64,000 nucleotides of DNA. Source: Sulfurimonas sp. HSL-1656. GTDB lineage: Bacteria > Campylobacterota > Campylobacteria > Campylobacterales > Sulfurimonadaceae. The stretch lies in the NCBI RefSeq assembly GCF_039645585.1, contig NZ_CP147915.1, forward strand, positions 620,001-684,000, read 5' to 3'. The stretch's first letter is position 1, and each line of letters opens with the position of its first letter. Under the pieces are notes generated by a model. That model was given only the letters and a program-made list of their open reading frames with translations. It did not search any database and was not told the origin of the DNA. This document shows, in pieces, positions 54,907 to 64,000 of this stretch. Position numbers and translations under genes: made by a program.

Positions 54907-54932
54907 ACGCTGCGAGAGCGTCTTCTTTCTTA
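54907..54932. terminator. terminator between helicase and pilus operon
   Basis: GACGCT-GCGAG-AGCGTC (54907-54923) followed by TTCTTTCTT. It closes the helicase transcript and may also act on the convergent pilus operon. Confidence 0.7.
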
Positions 54933-56177
54933 ACCACGACCTTGAACGGCGTCGTTGAGTGACCACATTGGCAGGAAGATACCAAGGGCAAGCAGCAAAA
55001 CCATGGCCGCAATGATAAAGAGCATGATCGGTTCGATCGCTTCGGCCAGACCATCGATAATCTGGTCAAAGCGCATCTTGTAATAGTCTGTGACTTTTTC
55101 CAACATTGAGTCAAGTTGACCACCCTGCTCACCGGCGGAGATCATCTGGATGATCATGTTCTCAAACAAACCGGTATCTGCAAGCCCCTCACTGAGCGAT
55201 GACCCCTTTTCAACAGCCTGACGCACAGTTGACAATTTTTCCTGCAGGGGTAGATTGTCAATCATCGCAATTGACGTTTCGAGTGCGTCGGCAATCGGAA
55301 TACCCGCTTTGACCAGAGCCGAAAAGACCAGCGTAAAACGGTTAAGCGTCGAGTACATGATCAGGTTCTTGATGAGATAGGTTTTTAGCAGGAGCTGGTG
55401 CCACCTGAATCTAAACTCCCGGTTGGTATTGAGCATATATCTGAAAATGATAATGAACACGATCAGAGCGGCTAGCACATAAGGGCCAAAGTTGTTGAAA
55501 AGATACTCCAGTTTCAACAGAATAATTGTCGGTAACGGCAGGTCGGCATGAAGCTCTTCAAAAATCTTTTTGAACTGCGGTACGACATAGGAGATCAGAA
55601 TAGTGAATGCGACAGCCATGGCAATCATGACATTACGCGGGTAGGCCATTGCTTTTTTGAATTTGATAACGTTGCGCCGTATCTCTTCGAGCATATCGGC
55701 AAGCTGGTAGAGCGATTCAGCCATATTACCGGTCTGCTCACCGAGCTCGACCATCGCCAGCGTAAGCCCGCCGAGTTGGAAGCGAAAGTTCTCCATTGAT
55801 TTAGACATGCTGGAACCAGAGTTGATGTCTTCAGCGATTGATGAAAAAATCTCTTCTAGTACAGGGTCGTTGGCTGCACGTGCAATTTCATTCAATGCAT
55901 CGTGCACTGAGATCCCGGCATTAGTCATAACCGCTAGCTGCCGAATTGCAGCAATCAGGGAGTCTGGCTTAACCTTTTTCTTTTTGACATTGCCAATGAC
56001 ACGCTCTTTAAAGTGCTTAAGCTGGTCTTCCAGCGGTGCCGCACCTTCGGTGACATTGACGACGATCCCCGGATAACGTACTTTCGCAATATACATTGCC
56101 TCTTTTTTTCCGTCGGCATAAAAGCCGTGCTGTACCTTTTTACCTTTGGCCAGGACTGTTGCGAGATAGTATTTCAT
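54930..56177 (-). CDS. mshG: type IV pilus / T2SS inner-membrane platform protein (MshG/GspF-like)
   Basis: A 415-residue GspF-family protein with two homologous F domains (about 80-200 and 280-400) and three membrane helices. Typical motifs are RQLAVMTNAGISVHDAL, ELGEQTGNM and SALVKAGIPIADAL, then ISAGEQGGQLDSML. It forms the platform on which the pilus is assembled, driven by the ATPase MshE encoded just upstream (4-base overlap). Last gene of the cluster; no pilin gene follows. Confidence 0.9.
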   Translation of the reverse strand: MKYYLATVLAKGKKVQHGFYADGKKEAMYIAKVRYPGIVVNVTEGAAPLEDQLKHFKERVIGNVKKKKVKPDSLIAAIRQLAVMTNAGISVHDALNEIARAANDPVLEEIFSSIAEDINSGSSMSKSMENFRFQLGGLTLAMVELGEQTGNMAESLYQLADMLEEIRRNVIKFKKAMAYPRNVMIAMAVAFTILISYVVPQFKKIFEELHADLPLPTIILLKLEYLFNNFGPYVLAALIVFIIIFRYMLNTNREFRFRWHQLLLKTYLIKNLIMYSTLNRFTLVFSALVKAGIPIADALETSIAMIDNLPLQEKLSTVRQAVEKGSSLSEGLADTGLFENMIIQMISAGEQGGQLDSMLEKVTDYYKMRFDQIIDGLAEAIEPIMLFIIAAMVLLLALGIFLPMWSLNDAVQGRG

Positions 56178-57910
56178 TCTTTTGCCACCCTTAAGACTTC
56201 TTCGATGGTTGTTTTACCTTCGACAACCTTTTTCATCCCATTTTGGAACATACTAACAAAACCTTCCTGAATTGCCTGTTTCATCATCTCCTCTTTGGAG
56301 GCGCTCCTGGCAATCATACTGCTGAGCGTTTCAGTGATGGGCAGTACCTCACTGATCATCTCCCGGCCCAGATAGCCGCTGCCGTTGCACTCTTTGCATC
56401 CTATACCATGGTAGAAGACCGTTTCGGGCGGAAGGTATGCTTTATACTCTTTAAGCAGGCTGGGTGGTACCTCAAGCTCTTTTTTACAGTGAGGACAGAT
56501 TTTACGCACCAGACGTTGTGCCTGAACGGCAACGACGGCCCCGCTGATAAGGTAGGGTTCAATGCCCATGTCCGCCATACGGGGCAGGGCGCTGATGGCA
56601 TCATTCGTATGCAGTGTTGAGATGACGAGGTGACCGGTCAAAGCCGCCTTGATCGCAATCTCCAGGGTTTCGTGGTCACGGATTTCACCGATCATGATCT
56701 TGTCCGGGTCCTGACGCAAAATGGAGCGTAGTGCTGCGGCAAAGGTCATGCCGACCTGAGGATGCACCTGGACCTGCTGAATGAGATTCATCCGGTATTC
56801 GACAGGGTCTTCAACGGTAATGACTTTATCTTCCACATTACGCAGTTCGTTGAGGGCGCCGTAAAGTGTTGTTGTTTTCCCCGAACCGGTCGGTCCGGTA
56901 ACAAGGAGGATACCGTGGGGTTTTTTGAGTGCCTGGATAAGCTTTTTGTACCCATCGGTATCCATACCGGCATCTTCCAGTCGGATCAGGGCCTTCTCTT
57001 TATCCAAAATACGCATAACAATCGACTCGCCGTAGAGAATCGGCAGCGTGGAGAAACGGAAGTCATATTCACGGTCTCCGACCATGGCGGAGAAACGACC
57101 GTCCTGCGGCTTGCGCTTTTCGGCGATATCAAGATTAGAGAGGAGTTTGAAGCGCGAGGCCAGCGGCGGATAGATATCCTGGTCAAAGATGAAGATTTCG
57201 GCAAGTTTACCGTCTACCCGCGCCCGAACGACGCAGTTATTTTCTGTCGGCTCAATATGGATGTCACTGGCCCGGCTTTTGATACAGGTTTTTAGAATAA
57301 CGTTGATCAGCTGCAAAATGGAGGAAGCATCTTTTTGTTCCTCCGGGGATCCAATAGTGTTGAGCTCTTTACGGATGTTGTCAACAAGACCTTTGACACT
57401 GCTTTTAATGTCGATCTTGAAAAGATAGGACTGTATCTGCTTTCCTGAAGAGATCGCTACTTGTAGTGGCTTGCGTGGAAATACACGCTGAATGGCTTCC
57501 TGGGCATCGATATTAAGCGGATCGGCGAATGCCACGGTAATACTCATATCGCTTTCTGCTACCGGCAGGGCATTGGAACGTTGCAGAAGATTCAGGGGAA
57601 CACGCTCAGCGAGACGGTAATCCATATCGATCGAATCGAGATCGATATACTGGATCTCCAGGACTTCAGCCAGGTATTCGAGGACCGCCCTTTCCGGAAG
57701 GAAAGTGTACTGTTTGAGAATTTCCAGGTCATATTTGCCTGCCCGGATCTGTTCGACGACAAAACGTTTGACAAAATTGAGTGAAACGGCACCGACTTTC
57801 GTCAGTGTTTCCAGCAGAATCTCCTCTTTGACCCCGACCTTTACAAGGCGGTCAATCTGGGTCTGAGAGATATGCTTTTTTTCCAGAAGATCGTGAGTTA
57901 TTCTATCCAC
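56174..57910 (-). CDS. mshE: pilus assembly ATPase (MshE/GspE family)
   Basis: A 578-residue secretion ATPase. N-terminal MshEN-type domain (about 1-170), Walker A GPTGSGKTTTLYGALNEL, Asp box, Walker B (IMIGEIRDHETLEIA), His box, and the four-Cys zinc module CPHC...CKEC. MshEN domains in relatives bind c-di-GMP, which would link this pilus to the cyclic-di-GMP enzymes in this window; the binding residues were not verified. Confidence 0.93.
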   Translation of the reverse strand: MDRITHDLLEKKHISQTQIDRLVKVGVKEEILLETLTKVGAVSLNFVKRFVVEQIRAGKYDLEILKQYTFLPERAVLEYLAEVLEIQYIDLDSIDMDYRLAERVPLNLLQRSNALPVAESDMSITVAFADPLNIDAQEAIQRVFPRKPLQVAISSGKQIQSYLFKIDIKSSVKGLVDNIRKELNTIGSPEEQKDASSILQLINVILKTCIKSRASDIHIEPTENNCVVRARVDGKLAEIFIFDQDIYPPLASRFKLLSNLDIAEKRKPQDGRFSAMVGDREYDFRFSTLPILYGESIVMRILDKEKALIRLEDAGMDTDGYKKLIQALKKPHGILLVTGPTGSGKTTTLYGALNELRNVEDKVITVEDPVEYRMNLIQQVQVHPQVGMTFAAALRSILRQDPDKIMIGEIRDHETLEIAIKAALTGHLVISTLHTNDAISALPRMADMGIEPYLISGAVVAVQAQRLVRKICPHCKKELEVPPSLLKEYKAYLPPETVFYHGIGCKECNGSGYLGREMISEVLPITETLSSMIARSASKEEMMKQAIQEGFVSMFQNGMKKVVEGKTTIEEVLRVAKE

Positions 57911-57922
57911 TTCAGACTGCCT

Positions 57923-58471
57923 TTAACGGTAAATATGCTGTTTTGTTAATATTGTATCATAATATTCAGTGATGCCCAGATTCAGGGAGCGACCGGTACG
58001 CTGAAGGAAAAGTTGATAACTTCGACGCGCATTTTTCGGATCGCTGAAAACATAGGTATCACCGTTCCTGACAAACTTGTTTGCACTGTAGAGATCAAAC
58101 ACCCGCGAGAGAAGATGATCGGATGTGGGAAGGTTGAGACCGGTGATCGGTGCACGCTCCTCCAGGGCATTGAGCAAGAGATTTTTTTGCAGCAGAATCG
58201 CTGTAAAATAGGTGGCATTTTTGCGTGCCTCAGGAGAGTTTTTCAACATGACAATAGGCAGTGCAAGCCGGTCGATCCGATCGGCTTCAAGGCATGCAAA
58301 AGCATAGAGTGAGACAAACCGTTCATCGTCTTGATGGCGCTGAAGCTCTTTCACCCCTGCATTGCAGGCTTGAATGTACTGACCGTTTTGATAGAGTCTG
58401 TAGAGTCCACTGCTGTCGGAAGCGGCAAGTAGCAATGGCATGAGCGCCAAAAGTGAAGCGAAGTGCTTCAT
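57923..58471 (-). CDS. exported TPR-like protein of the pilus cluster, unknown
   Basis: A 182-residue protein with a signal peptide (MKHFASLLALMPLLLAAS) and helical hairpins reminiscent of TPR repeats (YRLYQNGQYIQACNAGVKEL). Not recognised as a known Msh protein. It lies between mshN-like and mshE with a 4-base overlap at its start, so it is part of the operon and probably a periplasmic assembly factor. Confidence 0.65.
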   Translation of the reverse strand: MKHFASLLALMPLLLAASDSSGLYRLYQNGQYIQACNAGVKELQRHQDDERFVSLYAFACLEADRIDRLALPIVMLKNSPEARKNATYFTAILLQKNLLLNALEERAPITGLNLPTSDHLLSRVFDLYSANKFVRNGDTYVFSDPKNARRSYQLFLQRTGRSLNLGITEYYDTILTKQHIYR

Positions 58472-59412
58472 TCAAGGGCGCCTTTCTCCATCTGGTCCAG
58501 GGCGAGTTTGGCTTTGACGGAGCTGCTCTCCTGGATATAGCTTTTCAGCGTTTTGATCGCCATCTCCTTTTGATCCATTTTATAAAGTGACTTGGCGAAA
58601 ATAAGCCATGAATCCTCAATCGTACTGTCAAGTTCATTGGTGATCAGCGCATAATTGTATGCCTGCTGGTAGTTGCCGATATTATAATAACGTTTGGCGA
58701 CAAAGAGACTCAGAACAGGGTTCTTGCTCTTTTTGAAACGGGCAATGACGTCTTGAATGTCTTTCATGTCGTCGTCGCGCAGGATCGTCATGCCACCTGA
58801 ATCTTCTACATCTTCCACGGACTCTTGGGGTCTTTCGTTACGGCTTTGCATGGCTTTGACAGCCTTCTGAGGCTGGATAGACGGCAAAGACTCTGCTTGA
58901 GGGGATGGCGCTTCAATGGTTTGGATTTCTTCTTCCGGTGGTGCTGAAATGACGGGAGCGGGAGCAGGTGCTTGTTTGACGGGCCTTGGCTTTACAGAAG
59001 GTGCAACATCCTTGATAACGGGAGCCGGTTGTGTATTAACGTGTGCATAGTAGTCCATCACATCGGATTCCATCTCTTCCATGAACTCCATAGAAGGGGT
59101 AAGTTTCATTGTGGGGGCTGCAGTTTGCTCATTCGTCGGAGAAGATGGCGTTGCATTGACTTCAGCAGTAACCACCTGAGACGGCTCGACGTCTTGAAGG
59201 GTGGACGGGACGGTCGTTGTTGTTTGAATCGAAGAAGGTTTGACCACATCGGCTGATTTGATTTCTGATGGTAGTTGTGTATCGGGCGTCATGAGCACAA
59301 TGGTCACGATAATAACTGTGAGTGCAGCAACCCCACTGCCTATCATATAAGGGATCAGGCGCACACGACGATATTTTTTCCAGCGCTGTTCGAGTTCAGG
59401 AACGTTAAGCAT
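58468..59412 (-). CDS. MshN-like membrane protein with TPR tail
   Basis: A 314-residue protein with one membrane helix (about 20-42, LIPYMIGSGVAALTVIIVTI), a long Pro/Ser/Thr/Glu-rich periplasmic linker and C-terminal TPR-like repeats (about 215-310; FVAKRYYNIGNYQQAYNYAL). This layout matches MshN of MSHA pilus operons. ATG 59412 was preferred; a TTG at 59430 would add six residues. It overlaps the mshM-like gene by 8 bases. Confidence 0.7.
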   Translation of the reverse strand: MLNVPELEQRWKKYRRVRLIPYMIGSGVAALTVIIVTIVLMTPDTQLPSEIKSADVVKPSSIQTTTTVPSTLQDVEPSQVVTAEVNATPSSPTNEQTAAPTMKLTPSMEFMEEMESDVMDYYAHVNTQPAPVIKDVAPSVKPRPVKQAPAPAPVISAPPEEEIQTIEAPSPQAESLPSIQPQKAVKAMQSRNERPQESVEDVEDSGGMTILRDDDMKDIQDVIARFKKSKNPVLSLFVAKRYYNIGNYQQAYNYALITNELDSTIEDSWLIFAKSLYKMDQKEMAIKTLKSYIQESSSVKAKLALDQMEKGALE

Positions 59413-60217
59413 GGATAAACCCCGTTTCAATACCTGCCATCTCGATCATCTTGCGGTTAATGGACGTATAGTTGATCTGAGTCGGTTGATTCTCTTCATA
59501 CCATGATGCAATACTGAAAAGGGCGAAGAGCAGTTTGTTCGTATTTCGGTAATTGCCTTCGGTCAGTTCATGGATCCAGCGGACATTCTTGTCATTGAAC
59601 ATATTGGCAACATCAAAACAGTTCGACCGGAGCAGTTTTTTCTGAATGTAGATTTTCAGTTCTGCGGCGGAAGCGTTGAGCAACTCTTGTGCCTCCCAGA
59701 TGCGTGATTGGAAGTGTTCTTTGGCAATAACATCTTCCTGCTCCGTTTTGTGGAGGGAGATAATAAACTTGATCTGTCGTGTGTCGGAGATGAGACGTAT
59801 TTTTTCCAACAGAGCTGTCGAATACATCTGTGCTTCATCCAGCAAAATAACCGGCGCTGTTTCAAAGGTATACTGCGCAGCCAGTTCATTAAAACGTGTA
59901 AAATGAATTGGTTCGTCTGTAATGTAGTCGAAAACATCCCGTGCCAGCGAGCGGAAAAACGCGTCCTCATCCGTGATCGGAGTCTGGTAGAGAACGATTT
60001 TTTGCCGGTCATGCAGCTCTTTATAGATGCGGCTGAGCATCATACTTTTCCCTGTCCCGGGTTTGCCGAACAATAGAATCATTTTGAGGGGTTTTTTAAT
60101 GGCTTCCATCAGGGATCTGTAGACGATGGCGACGCGATCAAGCTGCACGTATGCATTCGCGTCGACGACATCGAGAAAGACCTCTTTGGAAACGTCAAAG
60201 AGGTTGTTATTCTGCAT
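59405..60217 (-). CDS. mshM: AAA ATPase of the ExeA/MshM family
   Basis: A 270-residue AAA+ ATPase with Walker A FGKPGTGKSMML and Walker B VILLDEAQMY, then sensor-like SDTRQIKFIISLHK. It is the MshM/ExeA-type ATPase thought to help place the secretin and its peptidoglycan passage. It overlaps the secretin gene by 11 bases. Confidence 0.82.
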   Translation of the reverse strand: MQNNNLFDVSKEVFLDVVDANAYVQLDRVAIVYRSLMEAIKKPLKMILLFGKPGTGKSMMLSRIYKELHDRQKIVLYQTPITDEDAFFRSLARDVFDYITDEPIHFTRFNELAAQYTFETAPVILLDEAQMYSTALLEKIRLISDTRQIKFIISLHKTEQEDVIAKEHFQSRIWEAQELLNASAAELKIYIQKKLLRSNCFDVANMFNDKNVRWIHELTEGNYRNTNKLLFALFSIASWYEENQPTQINYTSINRKMIEMAGIETGFIHA

Positions 60218-61852
60218 TGGCCTCGTCAGCAGTTGTATTATTGGTGTCGAGTCCTACTTCTTTGTCGGTAAACTTGGTATAGCCAAGATCTGAAAGAGAG
60301 ATGGTATTGTTCTCTTTCTTGATGATATGTGGCTCGATAACAATGACAAGTTCAGTCGTATCAACAGCTTTTTCTTCATATTTGAAAAGATAGCCAAGTC
60401 CCGGGATGTCGCCAAGAAGAGGGACTTTATTAGTATGCATGCTTTCAGACTTGTCAATAAGACCACCGATAACAATGCTGTTGCCGTCTTTGACAGTAAC
60501 GACGGAGGCAAGCTGGCGACGATCAAGGTCCGGCGGCATAGTACGTTTTTGCTGCTCCGTTTCATCACTGTTCAACTTGATACGTGTTTGGCTGATGGAC
60601 GGGTTGATTTTCAACGTAATGGTGTTGTCATTTGCGATTTCCGGAGTGATGTCCAGGAGGACGCCTGCAAAAATGGAGTTGACAACGTCATTCTGGGTTG
60701 TTTGTGATGTTCCCGAAGAACTACCTGCAAGAATGTTGGATTGCTGGATTTTATAAAATACTCAGTACCGACGGTAATCAATGCAGGTTGGTTGTTCAGA
60801 GTAAGGACCTTTGGATTTGAGATCGCATCGACATCCCCCTGTGTCTCGAGGAATTTGACCAATTCGTTTATGGTGTTCCCTCCATACATTCTCAGTAGGG
60901 ATGCAGGGCCACTATAGCCACCTGCGCCTCCTGTAAGGATCTGACCTGCTGTGTCAAATTCACTGACATTGAGAGCGTCAAGTTTATCAACGGTGAGATT
61001 AAGGTTCTGAAGGGCATAGATCTGAGACCAGTCGATACCGTTTGATTTGACATCACTAAGAGTGACAGCCATCATACGCACATCAATGAGTACCTGGTAC
61101 TGAATCTTTTTCTGAAGCTCTTTAAGATATTTCTCAAGACGCTGCTGTTGGCGTACTGTTGCCGTGACTGTAACAAGACCTGCATTTTTATTGACAATGG
61201 GGGCTTCCGCCTGGTAGAAGTCCGTTGGACGGTTGAGGACACGCTGCAGCTCAAGGTCAAGCTCTTCCCAGAATTTGACTTCGTCCAAGGATTCGATTTT
61301 GATACCGGACGTATTATTCTGAGTAATCTGTTTTGAACCATAACCAAGATCCTGACCGGCTCCACTGCTGCTCCCGCCACTTGATCTGTTTGAGCCACTA
61401 GTGTTGTTAGATGATGCATCTGTCGCTTGAGAACTACTCAGAAGAATGTCAGTACTACCGATACTTTTGCGGGCACTGATGATGTAGTCAATATTGTACG
61501 TCTGCGTCTCAATGAAAGAGATTTTGAGAAGATTATTCTCCAGCGTATAGTTCAGGTTGTTGTCGACGAGGAGAATATCCAAAACTTCATTCAGCGTCAG
61601 GTTTTTCAGGTTTGTCCGCTGAAGACGTTTGGACATCTTCTTTTCCGCTTCATTATCATTGATGATCAGTGTCAGTTCACACTCATCGCTCAGCTGATCA
61701 ATGTACTTGGAGATCGTCATCCCTTTCGCACCGCTGATGGAAAAGAGCTCGTAGGTACAGTCTGCTGCCTGCACCGATGAGGCCAACAGCACTGCCGCGG
61801 CTACCGAAGTGAGTGACTTGTTGATTTTTTGGAATGGAGTCATGTTTTTCAT
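60207..61852 (-). pseudogene. mshL: MshL-type secretin gene broken by a one-base frameshift
   Basis: The first frame (61852 down to about 60755) encodes a signal peptide, secretin N domains and the start of the secretin core, including YQVLIDVRMMAVTLSD and SNPKVLTLNNQPALITVGTEYF. It then runs out of frame and stops at 60611. The next frame continues the core exactly (YKIQQSNILAGSSSG, VNSIFAGVLLDITPEI, LKINPSISQTRIKL, SVVTVKDGNSIVIGGLID, VPLLGDIPGLGYLF) to 60207. Restoring one T in the TTTT run (minus strand, 60759-60756) yields about 548 residues. Sequencing error, a true mutation or a -1 slip on UUU are all possible. Confidence 0.85.
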
Positions 61853-61861
61853 CGTCTTTCC

Positions 61862-62293
61862 CTATTTGGCGTTGATTTGGATTTTTGGGTTCTTCTTCTT
61901 CAAAGTGAGCGTAAGCTGTTTTTTCTTCTTCTGAAGTAAGACGCTGTCACGTTCAATTTTCACGATAGCATACCCGTAGATGGTGTCATTTTGCTTATAC
62001 CATTTACCGTCAATCAATGCCGTATGGCTGTTGATGACAGATTCAAGCGTCAAAGGTGGCTTAGGCACATAACGCTGCACATAGGTTGTAGTTCCCTTTT
62101 TTGTTTGAGGCGGCTGATTGAGAATCAGCTGTGCTCTGAACGGATCCTTCAGGCCAAATAGGGCAGCTGACGATACCCCTGTTCTTGGGGGTTTGATGGC
62201 TGCAATCTCCTGATCGACCCATTGCATGTCAGGTTGGATATCCTGTGCAAATGCGAACAGAGGCAGCATGAGTATTAGTAGTTTCGTTTTCAT
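61862..62293 (-). CDS. MshK-like periplasmic protein
   Basis: A 143-residue exported protein with a signal peptide (MKTKLLILMLPLFAFA), a Pro-rich middle (RYVPKPPLTLESV) and a PilP/GspC-like short beta domain (ALIDGKWYKQNDTIYGYAIVKIERDSVLLQ). Its position between mshJ and mshL, and ATG overlapping the previous stop (TAATG), support MshK, a link between inner membrane proteins and the secretin. Confidence 0.7.
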   Translation of the reverse strand: MKTKLLILMLPLFAFAQDIQPDMQWVDQEIAAIKPPRTGVSSAALFGLKDPFRAQLILNQPPQTKKGTTTYVQRYVPKPPLTLESVINSHTALIDGKWYKQNDTIYGYAIVKIERDSVLLQKKKKQLTLTLKKKNPKIQINAK

Positions 62294-62925
62294 TAGTAAG
62301 TGATCCCCCATACTGATGAGTTGACATCGAGTTCCAGTTTTTCTTTGGCACTCAGGCTGAGACCGTGCAGGTCGATAACCAGATCACTCTGTTCCATGGC
62401 GTTGATGAATTTGAGCATGTTGTCGAACTCACCTGACGCAAAGACTTTGATGTCAAGTACGTGACCAAACTTCTCTTTTTCCAGAGCCCTTTTATTGCTC
62501 AAGACAGCGAGCTTGACGCTGTATTTCTTGGCATTTTCTGCGATCGAGTCAATATATTTACCCCAGGCTTCTTCATTATAGAAGAGTTCAGAGATCTGAC
62601 TGATCTTGTAGTTGATATATTCGTTTTTCTCTTTGACAGCCAATGTTTCCGCTTTAATGGCTTCAATTTGGGCTTCAATCTGATGAATTTCGCTTTCTGG
62701 ATGCATTGCGAGATAATGCTCATCTGCTCTGAGCTTTTGTTCGACGGCAATCCGTTCTGCCTTCACCTGCTGATATTCGCGCTCAGCACTTTCCCAAAAT
62801 AAGAGGTAGGAGAAAGCTATAAGCGCTACGGCGATCATGCCGTATATCATATAGACCTCACCCTGTTTCTTACTAGAAAAAGACTGGTCTATTGGATAGA
62901 GGTATTGTTCAATATTAAATTTCAT
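62293..62925 (-). CDS. MshJ/PilO-like inner membrane protein
   Basis: A 210-residue protein with a single membrane helix (about 26-45) and a long coiled-coil stretch (about 46-110; QVKAERIAVEQKL, EAQIEAIKAETLAVKEK) followed by a PilO-like alpha/beta domain ending VNSSVWGITY. This is the PilO/MshJ layout, part of the inner-membrane alignment complex. It overlaps the MshI-like gene by 4 bases. Confidence 0.78.
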   Translation of the reverse strand: MKFNIEQYLYPIDQSFSSKKQGEVYMIYGMIAVALIAFSYLLFWESAEREYQQVKAERIAVEQKLRADEHYLAMHPESEIHQIEAQIEAIKAETLAVKEKNEYINYKISQISELFYNEEAWGKYIDSIAENAKKYSVKLAVLSNKRALEKEKFGHVLDIKVFASGEFDNMLKFINAMEQSDLVIDLHGLSLSAKEKLELDVNSSVWGITY

Positions 62926-64000
62926 TTCAGCACCACCTTCAGATCACCGCGATAATAGCTGGTGTTATCATCCAATTCGATTTTTTCGATGTTGTAATGA
63001 AAACGCTGTGTCCGGTTCTTTGTCATAAACTCAACCAGGTCGGTGATTTGTTTGTCTTTTTTTGCCATAACACTCAAGTTGAATGCTTTTTCATTTTCAT
63101 CTTGCGCATATGAGATGTCAGACACACCGACGTCAAATCGGTTCATCTCCCTGGTGAGTTCAGCCATGATTTCAGCTTTCATCGGATAATTAACTTTGAC
63201 ATCATGAATCTTGATCAAAGTGGCTTTCCGCTCTTCAAAAAGTTCGTTTTCTGCATCAAGCAGTTTCTGCGCTTCAGCCTTTCGTGCCAGGTTCAAATTG
63301 ATGGTCTCTTCCCGTGTCACTTTGATGGCATGCGTTTCTCGGTACTGTTTCTCCAGCAATGCTTTCCGTACGCTTTCGGCATACCCCATCGTCCAGTAGG
63401 TGACAGGGTAAGCGAACGCCACGACAAGCGAAAGTGCAGTTACGGCGAAGAGCTTCCCGCTGTGGCGCTGGAAGAACGGCGGCGGCCGATGGTAGATAGA
63501 GAAATTGACGTCATAGCGTGCGGCTTTGTCCGTACGGACATACAGCTGCATCAGCTGGTGGATCTGGTCAATGTAACTGTCCGTCGCAAAACCGTAGGAG
63601 AAGTCGAACGCCTTGGCTTCAAAACCAAGGTAGGTTTGGCAATATTCGTCAACGCCGGCGATCGAACCGATCTGTGAACCGATGTAGATCTCTTCGATCG
63701 TTTCGATTTCATAGGCACGTTTAGCGTAGTTGAGAACGTCGTTGATATGGAGGAAAAGCTCACCGAAGAGTTTGATCAGATACTTCTGATACTCCGGATT
63801 TTGTGTCGCAAGGCCTTCCGTTGCCAGCAGCGTCTGGAAATCAACAAGATCGATCTGCTCGCCAAGAAGTTCACAAAAACGCTCATGCATATCGCGGAAA
63901 GAGTACTTCAGGCTTTTCGTGTAAACGAATTCTTGCTCGTTGTAGAGCGTGAAGAACGCGTCGTTCTCCTGGAAGTAGATATAGCAATGGGCGCCGTAGC
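62922..64000 (-). CDS. MshI-like (PilM/PilN-type) protein, 5' end beyond the window
   Basis: The frame stays open to the window edge (upstream of ATG 63890 it reads YGAHCYIYFQENDAFFTLYN and continues), so the true start is outside. The visible part has an actin-like PilM region, then a membrane helix (LFAVTALSLVVAFAYPVTYW) and a PilN-like coiled-coil and beta domain. This matches MshI, which fuses both functions in MSHA clusters. At least 359 residues are visible. Confidence 0.8.
   Translation of the reverse strand, partial: YGAHCYIYFQENDAFFTLYNEQEFVYTKSLKYSFRDMHERFCELLGEQIDLVDFQTLLATEGLATQNPEYQKYLIKLFGELFLHINDVLNYAKRAYEIETIEEIYIGSQIGSIAGVDEYCQTYLGFEAKAFDFSYGFATDSYIDQIHQLMQLYVRTDKAARYDVNFSIYHRPPPFFQRHSGKLFAVTALSLVVAFAYPVTYWTMGYAESVRKALLEKQYRETHAIKVTREETINLNLARKAEAQKLLDAENELFEERKATLIKIHDVKVNYPMKAEIMAELTREMNRFDVGVSDISYAQDENEKAFNLSVMAKKDKQITDLVEFMTKNRTQRFHYNIEKIELDDNTSYYRGDLKVVLK

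Follow-up and report, generated by a model that had tools for sequence, protein, structure and literature searches.

A one-base deficit in the mshL-type secretin gene of Sulfurimonas sp. HSL-1656, very probably recent and unprogrammed

The secretin gene and its pilus cluster

The window analysed here, a 64-kb stretch of the Sulfurimonas sp. HSL-1656 genome (G000), carries on its minus strand an MshL-type secretin gene (60207-61852) that is open in two frames meeting at a run of four T residues (60755-60758). The first-frame ORF (60611-61852, 413 aa) encodes a Secretin_N_2 domain (PF07655) and only positions 2-37 of the 169 positions of the Secretin domain; it reads past the T4 site and terminates ~42 codons beyond, these last ~42 residues being out of frame. 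The remainder of the Secretin domain (PF00263 positions 42-169) is encoded in the -1 frame, which is open from 60755 as far as 60207. The minus-strand sequence at the junction is 5'-GAG TAT TTT ATA AAA TCC-3' (60763-60746). Joining the frames at TTT, one base back, gives a secretin of 548 aa (...ITVGTEYFYKIQQSNILAGS...) that reads GTEYF-YKIQQSN across the junction with zero residues lost, in full agreement with the original prediction, which had placed the split at this run and had EYF followed by YKIQQSN restored by a -1 slip at UUU. Just downstream of the T4 run, an A4 run (60749-60752) is an alternative single-tRNA slip site, and a slip there would also restore the secretin frame with one residue changed. 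The first-frame stop TGA overlaps a second-frame TTG in the sequence TTGA (60611-60614), where reinitiation could possibly yield a candidate 135-aa fragment lacking ~42 residues of the secretin domain.

Against TIGR02519 (pilus_MshL; cut-off 250.2), the joined protein reaches 273.2 bits and covers model positions 2-290 of 290, while the two listed ORFs taken singly reach 116.1 and 104.2 bits, both below the cut-off. The gene sits in an MSHA-like biogenesis cluster, adjoined by genes for a T2SSE protein with an MshEN domain, a T2SSF protein and an AAA ATPase. The rest of the cluster (54930-63998, minus strand) comprises T2SSF/MshG-like, MshE-like ATPase, AAA ATPase/MshM-like and accessory genes, all of which are intact, differ in length by at most one residue from their orthologues in the congener G005, and show purifying selection.

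The cluster has some further peculiarities. Several of the biogenesis genes between 54930 and 63998 show unusually high silent-site divergence from the nearest congener, with most proteins still conserved: dS is ~1.0-1.2 for the secretin and 1.0 for the T2SSF-like gene, whereas 77 other genes in the sample have a median of 0.23. The G+C content of the cluster is 44-50% versus ~57%, and is low in both genomes. Allele exchange with a distant donor is a possible source of this divergence. Just beyond the window, a low-G+C island (40-45%; G000:601851-610102, equivalent to L087:1851-10102) contains three tandem type IV pilins adjoining glycosyltransferase-like genes; the corresponding stretch of G005 encodes four pilins amid a mostly different gene set, and this comparison of gene content suggests a hypervariable pilin locus.

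The pilus had been expected to depend entirely on this gene, as no second secretin had been seen in the window. Within the 64 kb this holds, and no other secretin was found there; the genome does, however, encode one further secretin at G000:2124 kb, adjoining a GspE-like ATPase. This protein is probably no replacement for MshL, because the congeners carry both a secretin of the 2124-kb type and an intact mshL.

The junction among relatives and the age of the break

Homologues were sought in 60 related genomes and in a single scan of contigs from GTDB, and full-length matches were obtained. Translated alignment of 76 homologous loci (this gene excluded; some represent the same contig from two collections) revealed a single stop-free frame across the junction in 71. 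A break at this site occurs in none of the 76, the remaining five being partial contigs or broken elsewhere. The three complete congeners (G004, G005 and G007) have a full-length ORF of 540-554 aa with 89-94% protein identity. One of the loci broken elsewhere belongs to the G018 MAG (L024:1492-3029 and L062:3001-4538, one contig present in both collections), where the secretin lacks query residues 420-457 and the frame changes; this is probably a fault of the MAG assembly.

At the DNA level, all 77 of the triplet sets read at the site are in frame and follow the pattern TAY/TTY TTY TAY, and 35 of them are TATTTTTA(T/C). Compared with the frame of its relatives, the window reads as one base short at the T run, and since every set is in frame and 35 share this form, the loss of one T is the simplest event. 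The T run itself is, as judged from these alignments, not conserved: runs of five T are frequent among relatives, and many other triplets are interrupted by C, such as TACTTCTAC.

Both halves of the secretin are under purifying selection when compared with G005, the closest congener, bearing out the expectation that both would be conserved. For the half downstream of the break, dN is 0.019 and dS 1.22, and the amino-acid changes unique to each lineage number one here versus four in G005. No decay was detected in the downstream half, nor any further disabling change in the secretin gene. At ~0.6 synonymous changes per site along this branch, a half that had escaped selection throughout should have gathered ~250 nonsynonymous ones; with a single lineage-specific change seen, the time without selection is limited by our estimate to about 2% of the branch at most. 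As the downstream half is free of decay, the break is either very recent or absent from the DNA of the cell.

Origin of the missing base

Taken together, the mshL T run appears to lack one base by comparison with every relative checked at this position, and the change is very probably recent and unprogrammed, being either a base-call error or a fresh loss of function. These two readings are judged about equally likely, with error slightly ahead. A homopolymer base-call error in the closed assembly has roughly an even chance of being the cause, and a genuine loss-of-function mutation, newly arisen in the sequenced clone, is nearly as plausible. All other explanations combined are improbable.

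The general accuracy of the assembly was gauged by comparing two 400-kb blocks of the genome (800 kb) with G005, and one block also with G007; the comparison with G005 covered ~638 genes and 217,000 codons, and the G+C content was 56.9% in the first 400-kb block. A survey for split genes on unfiltered ORFs gave many false splits, and a codon-usage filter and reading of the main candidates at the DNA level were then applied. No convincing frameshift of a conserved gene other than the secretin was found in these 800 kb (~638 genes). The other listed splits, most of which were read at the DNA level, appear to be spurious or antisense ORFs, or to reflect alternative starts and start-site extensions; small N-terminal splits were classed as start differences as a group. 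With no second convincing case in the sample, the error rate of the assembly is low, which argues somewhat against a base-call error at this site. The assembly is otherwise accurate, though a single residual error in 800 kb is quite possible. Pilus genes are often lost in culture, which favours a real mutation.

The original prediction had listed, next to a recent break and a sequencing error, a recoding or phase-variation switch, and it is these latter parts that are not supported: none of the homologues checked is broken at the site, no recoding signal was found and the tract measures just four bases. That full-length MshL is made by programmed or tolerated -1 ribosomal frameshifting at U_UUU (or A_AAA) is very unlikely. 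The exact rejoining of the two frames would fit such a mechanism, as would the strong purifying selection on both halves, but a break that is new or absent predicts the same selection equally well. The rejoining is also weak evidence, since slip sites are common and some deletions are restorable by chance: a U_UUU or A_AAA site is present in 630 of 728 sampled genes (87%), and a slip at such a site would restore 6% of simulated one-base deletions placed at random and 12% of those in A/T runs of at least four bases. The site UAU UUU AUA AAA permits single-tRNA slips only, as no slippery heptamer X_XXY_YYZ lies in frame, and no obvious Shine-Dalgarno-like stimulator is found upstream of it. Downstream, the predicted RNA fold was no better than that of shuffled sequences (z of 0.17 over 90 nt and -0.89 over 50 nt, in a test that covers folds other than pseudoknots). 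The two-frame architecture is not conserved, and no homologue has or needs a slip. The prediction had further raised homologues that end in the first frame; none do, which again speaks against recoding. A literature search on frameshifting in secretins returned nothing relevant. A variant in which the deletion is real and slippage at U_UUU provides full-length secretin for a few gates, the leaky frameshift setting pilus number, is even harder to credit.

Phase variation, with the T run gaining and losing length as an on-off switch for the pilus, merits as little belief. In other bacteria, phase variation is a classic feature of pilus genes, but known phase-variable tracts usually repeat one nucleotide at least 7-8 times, and a run of four (five in many relatives) is far shorter and not hypermutable. 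The C-interrupted triplets with which relatives encode the same residues indicate that no tract is maintained. A long-standing pseudogene in a lineage that has abandoned its MSHA-like pilus is equally far-fetched: the first-frame ORF holds only a small part of the secretin domain, but the C-terminal half carries one lineage-specific substitution against the ~250 neutral ones expected over the whole branch, the gene has no second disabling change, and the remaining cluster genes are intact and under purifying selection.

Consequences and comparison with known systems

If the deletion is real, translation would stop ~42 codons after the break with most of the secretin domain missing, and, given what secretins do, the MSHA-like pilus would presumably be left without its outer-membrane gate. 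The strain would then be a natural mshL-null for comparison with its intact congeners. The gene would probably be annotated as a pseudogene and the strain judged incapable of forming the pilus, a verdict that a sequencing error at this base could make wrong. Beyond annotation the finding matters little.

Among known systems, -1 programmed ribosomal frameshifting of the dnaX and IS3-family type shares with this locus a -1 shift that joins both frames, and is set apart from it by the heptamer, the structural signal and the conservation, all of which are absent here. Long-read-only bacterial assemblies usually retain homopolymer-length errors (PMC8812927), and the frameshift of an otherwise intact gene by one base missing from a T run is analogous to these, although the run here is short and the secretin is the only convincing case in 800 kb. 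The gene described here matches MshL, the secretin of MSHA-type pili (TIGR02519; PF00263), in that its joined protein lies above the family cut-off, with MshE-like and T2SSF-like genes alongside; it differs in that the cut-off is exceeded only by the two-frame reading and by neither listed ORF.
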